From positions 30,904 to 94,903 of the forward strand of contig JAUCQB010000061.1 in NCBI GenBank assembly GCA_030372985.1: 64,000 nt of DNA, in the 5' to 3' direction. Source of the DNA: Phycisphaerae bacterium. GTDB taxonomy: Bacteria; Planctomycetota; Phycisphaerae; UBA1845; PWPN01. Position numbers and translations under genes: made by a program. Within the stretch, counting starts at the first letter, position 1. Each line of letters begins with the position of its first letter. Under the pieces are notes generated by a model. The model was given only the letters and a program-made list of their open reading frames with translations. It searched no databases and was not told the origin of the DNA. Of the stretch, positions 50,892 through 63,272 are shown piece after piece.

Positions 50892-51058
50892 GGGTTAAGC
50901 AGGGCTTCATCCGGCCGTGCGAATCGCGCACCTGCTGAGACGTTTTCGGCAGACCGCTCAGATGGCTCTTGAGCGGGCGTATGTTGCTGTGGCATAATAT
51001 CATCATGGACGAGCGGATGATTTGCCTGGCACAGGTCGCATCAAGAGAGGGCGTCAAC

Positions 51059-52129
51059 ATGCCACGAAATAGACGGGCGGGGCGGCGGGGCGGCATGGGA
51101 CGCACGAGCGTGTCCGCCGGCGCGTTTACACTGATCGAAGTTCTGGTGGTGGTGGCGATTATCGCGCTGCTGATCGCCATCCTGATGCCGTCGATCCGAG
51201 CGGCTCAAGAGGCGGCACGGGCGAGCGTCTGTGGCAATAACCTGAAGCAGAACCTGACCGCCCTTCAGGTCAATCTGGCGGAGAGAACAGCCCGCAGGGA
51301 GACCGAACGGGTCAGCACAAACTATGGGTGGGCTGCGATTGCGTATCGCTACTCCAATCGTCAAGAGGGCATCTTCACCTGTCCCAGCGACCCCGAACCT
51401 TGGCCGATTCCCGCGATGTACGTGAGAATCCTGGGGGCTCAGAGCGAGCTGCTCTCCGGTGATGCCCTGTACAATCGCCCCAGGTTCGTTGCCGGAACGG
51501 AGACCAGTTATGAGCTCGACGTGCAGGACTCGGTCACGGGAAGCAGTTTTGGATTCGACGCATCCAACCCGAACGACATCGATCTGCTTCTTGAGTATCA
51601 AGCCATCAAGAAATCTCACAGCGCTCCGGTCAAGGTGAAGAACAAGGAGTCGGGCCTCGGTTTTGACGTTCTGGACTACAGACAACGGGTGGTCTGGGCC
51701 AACGTTACCGGTCCGATTACCACGCCGGTGGGAATGCCCCTGCTGTGGATGAGCTACGGAGCCAACGCCTCCGCGGGCCTGAAGGGAGTGAGAGGCAATC
51801 CCGCGCTGCTGGTGGAATTGCCCAAGCCCGGCGTCTTTCCTGAGAGGTACCCCGGATCCTCCTACCCTGTGGACGACTTTAGGAAGAGCCTTCGTTTTCG
51901 TCATGGGGAAAAGGCTCCCCCATCAGCCGGTCTGGGCGGATGGAACTACAAAACCGACGTGGTGTATGGCAAGACCGGCGGCGAAGGGTATGTTCCCAGG
52001 ATCCGGATGAACGTCGGCTTCTACGACGGGCACGTGGAGCGGCTCCATTACCTGCAGATGATCAAGAGCCCTCCAGGCAATTTGTGGCTGGGCAACCGCA
52101 CCCCGGGGTACACGCCCATATTCTGGTGA
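51059..52129 (+). CDS. prepilin-type protein, H-X9-DG class
   Basis: A 356-residue protein. The ATG at 51059 has GAGAGGG upstream. A short basic leader precedes the type IV prepilin signature [24 protein letters not shown], with cleavage before Phe and Glu at +5 for methylation. The body is long for a major pilin and ends with the segment [15 protein letters not shown], the H-X9-DG motif of the large planctomycete prepilin-like family (often called DUF1559-related). It could be processed by PilD and handled by the secretin machine encoded at 7-16 kb. Its own role is unknown. Confidence 0.9.
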
Positions 52130-52316
52130 TTGAATTCGAGTTTTGCCGAAGCAGCGGTCATTGAGGGTTCCGGCCGACCAGACTCAAGCCCGCAGCTTCA
52201 GCTCATAAGTCATTTCCTGACAATAGGATAAAGCCGGCCATCCGCTGGCCGAGAGGGCGGCCTGTGGAGCCGGGACGGGGGTGAGGGCTTTCTGGAGCCG
52301 AGCGTTTTTTCATCAC

Positions 52317-52345
52317 TTGACATGGTCGCAGCAGCCGGTTATAAG
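52317..52345 (+). promoter_or_regulatory. near-consensus sigma70 promoter of a candidate non-coding RNA
   Basis: TTGACA (52317-52322), a 17-base spacer and TATAAG (52340-52345): the -35 is perfect and the -10 5/6. It is the best promoter match in the window. The start would be near 52352. Confidence 0.75.
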
Positions 52346-52351
52346 GATAGC

Positions 52352-52858
52352 TAGATGACGGGAAGGCCATTCGGGCCTTCGACAGTCCATTCTAAGGGAA
52401 CCCGAGGGACGGCGAGAGAGAGATCTTGCTGTCCCTTTGTCGTTTCCGGACGTCGGCGGAAAGGAGACTCAGCCAAGACACGGTTTCCGACAACTGAATA
52501 CAGGCCTAAACGTTTCCCGCGATTCGCCCTTCTCAGCCCCACAAACGGAACGGGAAAAGCACCAGGTTGGGGAATTGCGCTGGAGGGTAAAAGCGAAGAA
52601 GGGAAAAGCAAGAGGGGAATCCCAAGGAGCAAGACGGGAATCCCTCCTCTCAAGTTTGGAGCTGGGGAAAGCCTCCTCTCCCAAAAGAGCTAGGAAACGC
52701 CTTGTCTCACGAAGAGGAGTCGGGAAAAGCGCTTTCTCCCTGCGGGGCTAGGGAGCCGCCTTCGGACGCGAGGGTGGGCACGCCTCCCAACGCGAATGGA
52801 TGCGGGGAACTGCAATGCCGGCTTTGTTCGTCCATAGGGCAAAGCCGGCACTTTATTT
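52352..52858 (+). ncRNA. candidate ~500-nt structured RNA of unknown family
   Basis: The stretch lies between the strong promoter at 52317 and the terminator-like hairpin at 52816-52850. No frame reads like a protein. Several hairpins are visible: GAAGGCC/GGCCTTC near the 5' end, AGGGACGGC/GCTGTCCCT about 52404-52437, TTTCCG/CGGAAA about 52443-52462, TTTCCCG/CGGGAAA about 52513-52557 and CTCCCT/AGGGAG about 52736-52755. The nonamer GGGAAAAGC occurs at 52552, 52601 and 52722 with near copies at 52585 and 52664. Conserved RNase P, tmRNA and SRP RNA sequences were looked for by eye and not found. It may instead be a long leader of the parvulin gene at 53020. Confidence 0.55.
52816..52858 (+). 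terminator. terminator-like hairpin closing the candidate RNA
   Basis: TGCCGGCTTTG (52816-52826) and CAAAGCCGGCA (52840-52850) form a perfect 11-bp stem with a 13-base loop, followed by CTTTATTT. It stands 160 bases before the parvulin start, so it could also act as an attenuator. Confidence 0.75.
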
Positions 52859-53019
52859 GCGCCGGTTTGCCTGGGTTCTGCCGGTCCGGCGCGGACTCCA
52901 TGCCTGTGACGGTTTTTTGACCTTGTCGGGCAGTTCCGGTAGGTTGGCGGCCTTTGTCGGCCATCCAGTCCACTGCCAGTCGGGCGTTGGCCGCGTGGAG
53001 CCATTTTGAAAGGTGTCTC

Positions 53020-54252
53020 ATGAGGTACGTTAACAGGTTTTCAGTGATGGCAGCGATTGCCTGCGCAACAGCCGCAGCGACGTTTGGCCAGATTGTTCCC
53101 GCCGTTTCTCAGCCGGCCTCAAAGCCTGGCACGGCGCCGGCAGATGAGGTGGCGGTGGTGGTGAACGGCCAACCGATCATGGAGAGCGACATCGACCGGG
53201 TCCTTTCCCAAGGGAGAAAGCTGAGCGCGGATGAGCTCGCCCAACTGCGGCAGCGCGTCAAGCCGCAGATGCGGTCTCTGTTTGATTACATGATCGGCAA
53301 CGAACTGCTGATCCAGGCGGCTAAGGAGGAGGGGATCGTTCTGACCGAGCAGGACTGGAAGGAGGAGTTCCAGAAGACCTACGACAAATGGGTTCAGGGC
53401 AACGGCTGGTCTCAGGAGCAGGCTGCCCAGGAGATCAAGAAGCGGTTCAACATGGACGTTGCCGAACTGGAGAAGGAGATGCCCAAGTCTTCAGGTTTCC
53501 GGGCACCGATCCTCCAGGAACGGATCATCCAGAAGAAGTTCGCCGATGAACTCAAGGTCAGCGATGACGAGGTCAAGGCCAACTACGAGCAGAACAAGGC
53601 GATCCGTTACACACCAAAGGAGGAGGAGGTGCGAGCCAGCCATATCCTTTTCAGCACGAAGGACCCGCAGACACGCCAGGCCATTTCCGAGGAGGCCAAG
53701 CAGGAGCAGCGCAAGAAGGCCGAGCAGATGCTCATCGAGGTGAAGAAGCCCGGCGCCGACTTTGCCGCCCTGGCCAGGGAGCATTCGGGCTGTCCTTCCG
53801 GAAAGCGCAGCGGTGGCGACCTGGGTTACTTTGCCAAGCCGAGGATGGTGCCGGCGTTTTCCGAAGCCGCATTTGCCATGAAGGTCGGAGAAATCAGTGA
53901 TGTCGTGGAGACCGACTTTGGATACCACATCATCAAGGTCACCGGGCGTGTGGCGGCGGGGGAGGCCATGCCCTTCGATGCGGTAAAGGATCAGATCCGG
54001 ACCCAATTGGACCAGCAGAAGCTCCGCACGGTCGTAGACCGCTACAGGGGAGAGCTCAAGAGCAAGGCCAAGATCGTCTATCCGCCGGGCAAGGAACCGC
54101 CCAGCCAGCCCGCCCCGCGATCCCCGATGACGAGGCCCGCGACCAGACCGGCGACCAGGCCCGCGATGCGACCCGGTACGCCGCCGACGAGTCGGCCGGC
54201 GGGTCGAGCCCCCATTACTCTGCCCCGGCCCCAGACGGCACCGGCTCGATAG
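53020..54252 (+). CDS. secreted parvulin-type peptidyl-prolyl isomerase (SurA/PrsA-like)
   Basis: A 410-residue protein. AAAGGTG precedes the ATG at 53020 and a signal peptide follows (SVMAAIACATAAATFGQ). Residues about 45-200 are the SurA-N-like helical chaperone region (VVVNGQPIMESDIDRVL). Residues about 205-330 are the PpiC rotamase domain with RASHILF, SGCPSGKRSGGDLGYF and SEAAFAMKVGEISDVVET. The last 60 residues are Pro/Arg/Thr repeats (RPATRPATRP). It assists folding of exported proteins. A strong terminator follows. The promoter may be the one at 52317, far upstream. Confidence 0.93.
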   Translation: MRYVNRFSVMAAIACATAAATFGQIVPAVSQPASKPGTAPADEVAVVVNGQPIMESDIDRVLSQGRKLSADELAQLRQRVKPQMRSLFDYMIGNELLIQAAKEEGIVLTEQDWKEEFQKTYDKWVQGNGWSQEQAAQEIKKRFNMDVAELEKEMPKSSGFRAPILQERIIQKKFADELKVSDDEVKANYEQNKAIRYTPKEEEVRASHILFSTKDPQTRQAISEEAKQEQRKKAEQMLIEVKKPGADFAALAREHSGCPSGKRSGGDLGYFAKPRMVPAFSEAAFAMKVGEISDVVETDFGYHIIKVTGRVAAGEAMPFDAVKDQIRTQLDQQKLRTVVDRYRGELKSKAKIVYPPGKEPPSQPAPRSPMTRPATRPATRPAMRPGTPPTSRPAGRAPITLPRPQTAPAR

Positions 54253-54277: not shown

Positions 54278-54317
54278 CGCCCGGGTCATGGAATCACCAT
54301 GATCCGGGCGTTTTTTT
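54278..54317 (+). terminator. rho-independent terminator after the parvulin gene
   Basis: CGCCCGGGTCATGG (54278-54291) pairs with CCATGATCCGGGCG (54297-54310) over 14 bases with one G-T pair and a 5-base loop, followed by seven T. It separates the convergent CvpA-like gene. Confidence 0.92.
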
Positions 54318-60890: not shown

Positions 60891-63272
60891 TCAATCGTCG
60901 CAGGCCGGATTGGCCGGGACGCCTGGGCCGCTGGCGCAGTCCTCGAACTTGAACAGGTCGGCTTGGTCGATATCGCCATCGGGCTCGATCGATTCGGGGC
61001 GGTCGAAGCAGGCACACTCGGCCGGGAGGGTGAAGGGGCCTGCGCCCCCGGTGTAGCAGACCTGCAGGGCCGCGAAGTCAGCCTGATCCACGTCGCCGTC
61101 CTGATCGGCGTCGGCGAACGGGTCCCAGTTCAGGCATTCCAGGGGAACAAACGTTGACCGCCGCCACGAGTCGAATTCACACTCGTCCTGGAAGACCGTT
61201 TCCTGGTCACAGATCCCGGCCTGGCCGCCGTTCTCGAAGTCGCCGTTACTGATCAGGTTCGATCCGCCGTTTTGCGTGACGACCACGTTGTCCCATAGAG
61301 ACTCCATGGCCCCACCCGCGTGGGTTCCGGCTTTGAGGATGACGGTCACAACCGTACCGGTGGGTGTAAGGGTCTGCCGCCGCAGGCCCGCCGGACCGGT
61401 GTCGGCCGGGGTCAGATGCGTAACCTGTTCCCATGCAAACGCGCCGGTCCCCAGTTCGCGTTTGCGGATCATGTACCGATTATTGGCCGAGGTGTTTTCC
61501 TGGAACTGGTCCGCATACTGCATGCTGAACGGCCCGTCGAGGAGTATGAGCTCGAACCAGCTGCTGGGGTTGCCGGCCGACGCGCCCTTCCAGTAATAGG
61601 AATACTCCAGTGGCACGCCGGGTTGCACGGTGATCTGCTGGAAAACGCCGCCGCTGCCTGTCCCGCTCCCGTTATAACCGGTCTGGACATCGAGGAACCA
61701 GTGAAGAGCCAGCGAGCTGTTGTCCGGCGTATCCAAGGTGGTGCCGAGATTGGGGTGCTGGCTGAACGTGTAGTCCCAGTTGGTGGCGTCGAACGCCTCC
61801 GCCTCTCCGGGGTCGAGGTCAGGCGTGAGATTGGGCTTGGTCCAGTCGGCCGCCCAGGGCTGCCAGAGGCAACCGCCCGGCGGCAGATTCTTGCTGACCC
61901 GCAGGGCCTGGCTCACGGTTGTGTCGCGACAGGCATCGGAGCGGTTGAGCACAAGGTCATACGACCCGGCCGGGGCACAGGTCAGGTCGAAGCCGGCAAT
62001 CAGATCGTCGCCGGCCATGGAAACCGAAGGATCGTTGTAGACCGGGACCGGGGAAGACTTCACGCGGTAGATCAGCGATGCGTCCGCTGCCTGGTCCAGG
62101 TTCGTACCGCTGACGGTGAGCGACTCGCCGAAGCCAGGGTCCTCCAGTTCGGCAGGTGAAACATTGGTCACGGTGATCGCGGTGGGACAAGTGATCTCAA
62201 AGGCTGCGGGAAGAGTCTGGATCAGGCAGGGGGGTGCCGGCGACTGGGTGGTGACAACGCTGTAGAAACCGTCAAGCGCGCCGGTTGTCCGGAAATCGGC
62301 GGTCAGGGTTGTCTTCGTCTCATTCACGACAGGATTCTCGCCGACAAGATCGGTCCCTCCGCTGACAGGAACCAGGCGCACCTGGGTGACGAGATCCAAA
62401 TCGGTGCCCGTAATGGTTACGGTCGCGTCACTGTCGTTGGGGTGACTTGTCGGGTCCACCGGCGCGGCCGTGGTGTGCTGCGGTCCAGGGCACTGGCTGA
62501 GTGGGTACCAATAGTTGTCATAGGTCGGGTCCTGGAACATCAACTGCTCGTCGCAGATCGACTGGGCGGCGGTGTCCTCAAAGTCCCCGTTAACCACGAG
62601 GTTGTTGCGGTCGTCATCACCTTGCCAGACCCTCACGTCGTCAAAGAAAACCTCCATCGCGCCTTCCGGCGCTCTTCCGGCCTTGAGAACCACGGTGACG
62701 GTAGTACCGGTTGGCGTCATCGTCGACCGTACCGGGCCGGGGTATGAGGTGCTGGTATCGGTGAGCTTTTCCCAAACGAAGGTCGCGTTCTCTCGCTTTC
62801 GCATAATATGCGGGTTCGTATTGCTCGGGTCCCATTTATCGGCGTCGAGGAGGGTGAAGGGGCCGTCAATCAGCATGAACTCAAACCACGTGGTATTTAT
62901 GCCGCTGGCTCCTCTCCACCAGAACGAGTACTTCAGTGGCACGTCCGGCGTGACGGTGATTTCCTGATAGACGCCTCCACTGCCTGAGCCATCACTTGGC
63001 TGGCTTGGGAGCTGGGAATCCAGGAACCAATGGAAGGCCATGGGGCTCCCGTCGGGCGTGGTCTTTGGAGTGTTGAGACGGGTCGTCTGGCTGAATGAAT
63101 AGTCCCAATTGGTCGGGTCAAATATTCCGTTGTCTGGATAGAGATCGGGTCCCTCATTGATGTTGCTCCAAGCGGCCGCCCACGGTCTCCAGACGCAATC
63201 CTGAGCCAGAGCGGGCGATGCAGCGATTGCCATAGCGGCAAAGGTCACTGTGACAGAGGTTGTCCGTTTCAT
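60891..63272 (-). CDS. large secreted protein with duplicated domain and dockerin-like tail
   Basis: A 793-residue protein with signal peptide MKRTTSVTVTFAAMAIAASPALAQ. A domain of about 230 residues occurs twice: first copy beginning CVWRPWAAAW, with NWDYSFSQT and FHWFLDSQ; second beginning CLWQPWAADW, with NWDYTFSQH and LHWFLDVQ. Both end near a VVNGDFED or ISNGDFEN block. Between them lie two IPT/TIG-like segments (VTITGTDLDLVTQV, LTVSGTNLDQAADA). The C-terminus has dockerin-like EF-hand loops, DADQDGDVDQADF and EPDGDIDQADLFKFE. No enzyme motif was found; a binding or structural role is likely. GGAG lies 10 bases upstream of the ATG. Confidence 0.8.
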   Translation of the reverse strand: MKRTTSVTVTFAAMAIAASPALAQDCVWRPWAAAWSNINEGPDLYPDNGIFDPTNWDYSFSQTTRLNTPKTTPDGSPMAFHWFLDSQLPSQPSDGSGSGGVYQEITVTPDVPLKYSFWWRGASGINTTWFEFMLIDGPFTLLDADKWDPSNTNPHIMRKRENATFVWEKLTDTSTSYPGPVRSTMTPTGTTVTVVLKAGRAPEGAMEVFFDDVRVWQGDDDRNNLVVNGDFEDTAAQSICDEQLMFQDPTYDNYWYPLSQCPGPQHTTAAPVDPTSHPNDSDATVTITGTDLDLVTQVRLVPVSGGTDLVGENPVVNETKTTLTADFRTTGALDGFYSVVTTQSPAPPCLIQTLPAAFEITCPTAITVTNVSPAELEDPGFGESLTVSGTNLDQAADASLIYRVKSSPVPVYNDPSVSMAGDDLIAGFDLTCAPAGSYDLVLNRSDACRDTTVSQALRVSKNLPPGGCLWQPWAADWTKPNLTPDLDPGEAEAFDATNWDYTFSQHPNLGTTLDTPDNSSLALHWFLDVQTGYNGSGTGSGGVFQQITVQPGVPLEYSYYWKGASAGNPSSWFELILLDGPFSMQYADQFQENTSANNRYMIRKRELGTGAFAWEQVTHLTPADTGPAGLRRQTLTPTGTVVTVILKAGTHAGGAMESLWDNVVVTQNGGSNLISNGDFENGGQAGICDQETVFQDECEFDSWRRSTFVPLECLNWDPFADADQDGDVDQADFAALQVCYTGGAGPFTLPAECACFDRPESIEPDGDIDQADLFKFEDCASGPGVPANPACDD

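Follow-up and report, generated by a model that had tools for sequence, protein, structure and literature searches.

What occupies the 890 bases that lie between the end of a pilin-like gene (52129) and the ATG of a parvulin gene (53020) in this Phycisphaerae genome? A sequence-only reading of the window, i.e., the whole stretch of 64,000 nucleotides that was analysed, had proposed that about 500 of these bases are a candidate new structured RNA, with a cis-acting leader or attenuator of the parvulin gene as the main alternative. The features needed to set out the problem are as follows:

50969–52129, + strand: pilin-like gene with a prepilin N-methylation motif, an open reading frame with an uncertain start codon; conserved upstream partner of the RNA
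52317–52345, + strand: promoter-like TTGACA-N17-TATAAG, identified from sequence
52352–52858, + strand: predicted RNA of ~507 nt, its start inferred from the promoter and its end from the terminator
52816–52858, + strand: predicted intrinsic terminator, 14 pairs (8 G-C), tail CTTTATTTGC, pair probability ~1
53020–54252, + strand: SurA/parvulin-type gene (PF13616), the ATG at 53020 lying inside a longer open reading frame from 52954; not linked to the RNA in the second genome described below

To count promoter-like sites, 12 positions were scored over the whole window with spacers of 16–18 allowed. The site at 52317 is the sole one with at least 11 of 12 matches, against a mean of 0.05 in 20 dinucleotide shuffles; a separate promoter scan omits it because that scan demands T as the last base of the –10 element. 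At the other end, the terminator stem (52816–52850) has 11 perfect pairs, or 14 when G-U pairs are counted, and is followed by a T-rich tail. The longest open reading frame in 52130–53021 is 112 amino acids, a length equalled in 333 of 500 shuffles, and two + strand frames of the stretch had no match in Pfam. When the frames of the stretch were compared with those of its counterpart in another genus, the best E-value was 0.012 over 16 residues in a tiny set, which is no convincing conserved frame. A protein-coding gene was rejected on these three grounds. The sequence-only reading, which had named this the best promoter in the window, had described an 11-bp terminator-type hairpin with a T-rich tail and had seen no protein-like frame, thus holds on all three points. 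A further strong terminator-like hairpin, of 14 pairs followed by seven T's, is found at 54278–54310, between the parvulin gene and a PF02674 gene on the opposite strand.

The assignment of the downstream gene to PF13616 agrees with the earlier claim that a secreted-protein folding factor is encoded there. The stretch is upstream of this gene on the same strand and its terminator stem ends ~170 bases short of the parvulin ATG (53020), as a cis-acting leader or attenuator could do. What speaks against this arrangement comes from other genomes. Two copies of the recurring nonamer GGGAAAAGC, 12 to 42 bases apart, were searched for in 114 genomes of the order, and the pair was found in three: the assembly holding the window (G000), G101, and G007, which is another genus of the same family. 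Since a reversed control pattern was likewise found in three of the 114, the pair by itself proves nothing, and it is position that does. The G101 pair was rejected as a counterpart, as it sits in a GC-rich tandem repeat region; this locus (L060, ~1250–1650, contig C76 of G101) is an array of CGCTTCCTTACGGGCGCGGCT-type units.

The G007 pair lies directly downstream of an orthologue of the pilin-like gene (47% identity over query residues 21–356; the window's pilin-like gene itself matches PF07963 at E 0.00036 and 20.4 bits, just below the cut-off of 21.2). Here a promoter-like TTGACA-N16-TAGACT (10 of 12 matches, 0.1 expected) is situated 60 bases past the pilin-like stop codon, and a 12-pair hairpin followed by T's, which the terminator scan lists in an offset 6-pair form, closes the region ~40 bases before the end of the contig. 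The arrangement common to the window and G007 is a promoter, two hairpins, a nonamer array and a terminator. Of the genes in the first 12 kb of this contig (23 kb in total), none but the pilin-like gene matches the window. Allowing at most one mismatch, GGGAAAAGC occurs four times in the G007 region, a count reached by none of 1000 shuffles, and zero or one time in each of 13 other pilin-downstream regions.

The parvulin orthologue of G007 is on another contig, where it was recognised by the same two downstream genes, a synteny conserved only in G007 among the loci compared. The region upstream of it contains no nonamer pair and no model match. A single-sequence covariance model (R1) likewise matched nothing immediately before the parvulin homologues of L035–L042, so that a search for homologues before parvulin genes, as had been suggested, found no conserved position there. 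The pilin-like gene, and not the parvulin gene, is therefore the conserved neighbour of the RNA: in G007 the RNA follows the pilin-like orthologue, and the parvulin gene, on its separate contig, lacks it. That the RNA serves the parvulin gene as a leader or attenuator, the main alternative at the outset, has become highly improbable.

Is the similarity to G007 real? The structural comparison is centred on two hairpins near the predicted start of the RNA:

52362–52380, + strand: hairpin 1, 7 pairs, pair probability ~0.95
52404–52446, + strand: hairpin 2, 13–14 pairs with loop GAGAGA and a T-rich tail, pair probability 0.94–1; terminator-like

Folding of 52348–52858 gave a z-score of –3.07, and the two flanking genes, folded for comparison, gave +1.3 and –0.3. 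The 5′ domain (52352–52446) alone reached –4.8, and the 5′ domain of G007 reached –4.3. For the 3′ domain, the window sequence without its terminator does not exceed shuffles in stability (z –0.6), and that of G007 does (z –3.0). GC-rich stem-loops had been claimed for the interior of the stretch, but the unusually stable part is the 5′ pair and not the interior.

The R1 model, built on the window's 109-base 5′ domain, was run against 27 sources (204 kb); it returned its own match and then the G007 region, at 18.9 bits and E 0.0097, with the next match at 15.3 bits. In the G007 alignment on this model, 39 of 40 pair cells are standard, and six of 20 pairs are changed on both sides, a count made from two sequences only with an alignment fitted to the structure. 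As many double changes were seen in four of 500 shuffles, and slid controls gave 0 to 1. In hairpin 1, three of the seven pairs are changed on both sides, three are unchanged and one is broken; in hairpin 2, three of 13 are changed on both sides, four on one side and six are unchanged, with none broken. Relative to shuffled sequences, local alignment of the sense strands scored 240 (shuffles 140 ± 21; none of 300 as high) and semiglobal alignment 404 (shuffles 317; one of 300 as high); the antisense local alignment scored 137. As a control, 13 of the 17 other pilin matches had their downstream regions aligned in the same way, with z-scores of –2.3 to 1.2, while the remaining four were covered by the motif scan and R1 only. 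A regular-expression scan of pilin loci produced one stray match, in L072, where the match and the gene are on opposite strands.

Several results would fit a different reading, namely that the features arose by chance in the 3′ UTR of the pilin-like gene or in decaying sequence belonging to it. In the best local alignment the two copies of hairpin 2 do not coincide, and the 5′ registers differ from those of the covariance model, so that the firmest agreement is over the entire region and in the array. Sizeable portions align poorly, and MAFFT left much of the 3′ domain unaligned between the window and G007. In a genome-wide R1 search of the 114 order genomes, the G007 locus is absent from the list and another place in G007 is given, while 18 of the 113 other genomes have matches at E ≤ 1, the best at 27.1 and 25.5 bits; sequence alone would therefore not have found the G007 copy. 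This search yielded 20 matches beyond its own at E ≤ 1, and 19 of them were inspected and rejected, none having two nonamers. A two-sequence model of the window and G007 (R2) found no third genome at E ≤ 0.5 among 40 relatives. Its four extra weak matches among 397 genomes of the class (per-genome E 0.0016–0.022) were judged to be chance; three of them lie inside long open frames, and each has 0 to 2 near-nonamers within ~3 kb. With nhmmer the window and the G007 region match at E ~0.4, blastn of the region against 61 genomes had no match except the window itself, and a distant blastn and a search of plasmid and phage records had none. The RNA was found in only two genomes. Against this reading, promoter-like and terminator-like sequences are present in both genomes, paired positions carry compensatory changes, and the alignment score lies above all 300 shuffles. 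We consider a 3′ UTR or decaying sequence quite unlikely. The comparison, as far as it can be drawn from sequence, supports a previously undescribed structured RNA at the level of two genera: the candidate that had been put forward now has a syntenic counterpart with compensatory changes, in a set of two sequences, and a check of relatives for conservation and covariation, which had been called for, finds both hairpins in G007 through the double changes.

The second hairpin itself resembles a terminator, a point that corrects the earlier reading. It is terminator-like in both genomes, the G007 form having 17 pairs and the tail TTCTGTTTTT, and its loop is predicted to be exposed in both (GAGAGA in the window, GAGGA in G007). 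Terminator-like sites number four in the window stretch, where 1.4 are expected, and two in G007, where 0.5 are expected. An early hairpin of this kind suggests a second, short product. In the strongest rival explanation, the locus would encode a two-product or conditionally terminated RNA, of which the ~95-nt 5′ RNA would be the functional part, a trans-acting base-pairing sRNA, and the 3′ array would be read-through or an antiterminator pairing with the 3′ arm of hairpin 2. Consistent with this, the 5′ part has unusual stability in the two genomes as well as the compensatory changes, and in the window 52424–52438 is 80% complementary to 52599–52613, a segment that holds a nonamer copy. However, no counterpart of this complementarity was noticed by eye in G007, and the T tract after the window's hairpin 2 is interrupted (TGTCGTTT). 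In addition, the two genomes have more in common than the 5′ part: the 3′ array, the end segment GGGAACWGCAAT and the terminal hairpin are found in both. We regard two products as possible but doubtful. The whole RNA was predicted to pair with seven start regions no better than with shuffled versions of them (z –0.95 to 1.8).

The remainder of the stretch is dominated by the nonamer and by a predicted stem that would enclose it:

52512–52527, + strand: 5′ arm of a long-range stem of 14 pairs, predicted to close the 3′ domain with 52792–52810 as partner
52552–52730, + strand: array of GGGAAAAGC and near copies, with starts at 52552, 52570, 52585, 52601, 52615, 52636, 52665, 52692 and 52722
52792–52816, + strand: 3′ arm of the same predicted stem, as far as 52810, together with the segment 52805–52816, adjoining the terminator

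The recurrence of the nonamer had been pointed out before, and it stands: GGGAAAAGC is exact at 52552, 52601 and 52722, with near copies at 52585 and 52664/52665, and looser copies are counted at 52570, 52585, 52615, 52636, 52665 and 52692. From 52636 on, the copies follow one another in steps of 29, 27 and 30 bases. Three exact copies compare with 0.03 expected, and none of 1000 shuffles reached three. Because the motif was picked from the sequence itself, the fairer figure is that any 9-mer is present three times in seven of 1000 shuffles. At up to one mismatch there are six copies in the 511-base stretch and 0.45 expected. The closing stem has a probability of 0.26–0.27 in the full window transcript, where its 5′ arm favours a competing pairing with the copy at 52601 (up to 0.72), which is thereby predicted to be paired; the counterpart stem in G007 has a probability of ~0.6. 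The segment at 52805–52816, before the terminator, reads GGGAACTGCAAT in the window and GGGAACAGCAAT in G007.

The A-parts of the copies are predicted to be at least 0.8 unpaired in five of the eight copies scored in the window and in five of seven in G007. Exposure of the A-runs was nevertheless dropped as support for a binding platform, since shuffled A-runs are about equally open: those after GG have a mean unpaired value of 0.71 in the window and 0.81 in G007, compared with 0.70 and 0.73 in shuffles, and A-runs in general have 0.77 and 0.79. It is the repetition of the motif that suggests that a protein may bind the array, and exposure lends this no support. The obvious candidate for the partner is CsrA, as it is encoded in 13 of 13 genomes of the family and binds GGA, according to PMC7652899. 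As a CsrB/RsmZ-like sponge, the RNA would sequester CsrA through the GGA repeated at its GGGAAAAGC sites and so free pilin or secretion mRNAs. The protein is available for this in both genomes, the matches in all 13 family genomes being above the Pfam cut-off (two places in G007; three matches at two places in G000), and GGA occurs 17 times in 52540–52815, where 11.2 are expected, a count reached by three of 1000 shuffles. But the GGA triplets are not predicted to be particularly exposed, with five of 23 accessible in G000 and six of 16 in G007, numbers that 28 and 11 of 60 shuffles also reached. ANGGA sites at the GGGAAAAGC copies amount to one of eight in G000 and none of four in G007, the Rfam matches include no Csr/Rsm RNA, and CsrA is present in all 13 family genomes while this RNA was found in two. 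A CsrB-type sponge is not supported by the predicted structures, and we consider it unlikely. A single 120-aa open frame at 61233–61514 of contig C76 in G000 contains two adjacent CsrA matches, and doubled matches likewise occur in G012 (C475) and G011 (C34); such tandem-CsrA proteins could deserve attention.

The promoter-like and terminator-like sequences, the conserved helices and the position point to an autonomous RNA. In RNAs to which a protein binds in several copies, a short motif is usually repeated along the molecule. The reading that we prefer, tentatively and at somewhat less than even confidence, takes the stretch as a stand-alone non-coding RNA gene, to which one other genus has a counterpart following the same pilin-like gene; its product is predicted to act in trans and to offer an RNA-binding protein a platform with multiple sites. 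RNA polymerase would begin near 52352; part of the transcripts would end at hairpin 2, at ~95 nt, and those extended to 52858 would include the array. A protein would occupy the GGGAAAAGC sites and so be titrated or recruited to the RNA, and pilus or secretion functions would be the likeliest beneficiary. A bolder form of this proposal, which seems to us rather unlikely, is a new modular RNA family, in which the terminator-headed 5′ domain would gate synthesis of a 3′ GGGAAAAGC array binding an RNA-binding protein, coupled to a pilin-like gene that travels with the RNA gene as a pair. If the stretch is transcribed, a multi-site RNA not described before would be associated with a pilin-like gene, and the protein partner could be sought with the repeated motif as a ready bait. 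A repeated motif together with synteny can also reveal an RNA counterpart that blastn missed and nhmmer barely saw.

How does the predicted RNA compare with known systems? An Rfam search, which had been recommended, gave no family match at the gathering score in the window; for 52130–53020, at up to E 10, there were five weak matches (E 1.1 to 7.8), none of them Csr/Rsm. That the usual housekeeping RNAs are not recognisable here was confirmed for RNase P RNA, 6S RNA and tmRNA. RNase P RNA (type A), including a divergent form, was rejected as RF00010 does not match the stretch; for 6S RNA, the only RF00013 match of G000 lies elsewhere, on C76; and ARAGORN finds no tmRNA in the window. That 6S match is a probable 6S RNA (L043 1501–1683, i.e., G000 C76 75776–75958) at 42.7 bits and E 6.8e-7, just under the Rfam cut-off of 46.4. 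The G000 assembly, which is 99% complete, has no RF00010 match at E ≤ 0.001, while 56 of the 61 genomes searched have one, at 216–320 bits; a gap in the assembly is the likeliest explanation. G006 has two full-length RNase P RNA matches, at C1 1119264–1119652 and 2096372–2096760 (313.8 and 304.5 bits).

The CCUCCUCCC-motif ("cuckoo") RNAs are alphaproteobacterial. CCTCCTCTC occurs twice in the window's array, which recalls them, but the CCTCCTCTC segments are predicted to be mostly paired here and there is no Rfam match. OLE, GOLLD and ROOL are large structured bacterial RNAs, and the stretch is like them in length and orphan character; it differs in having no Rfam match and, in the window, a 3′ domain that is not unusually stable. 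The CsrB/CsrC and RsmX/Y/Z sponge RNAs also bear comparison: like them, this would be a stand-alone RNA with many short GGA-containing motifs and a terminator, and the genome encodes CsrA, their partner protein. Unlike them, GGA is not enriched here at accessible positions, no Rfam match is found, a second domain with a terminator-like hairpin is present, and the motif is GGGAAAAGC rather than the consensus RUACARGGAUGU given in PMC7652899. Among publications on RNAs of Planctomycetes, noncoding RNA of Phycisphaerae and small RNAs of pilin genes, titles and the beginnings of abstracts mention no such RNA. The Rhodopirellula-1 motif, which PMC2864571 gives as a candidate for Proteobacteria and Planctomycetes with no Rfam number in its table, resembles the predicted RNA, by description only, in that it too is a candidate structured RNA from Planctomycetes.
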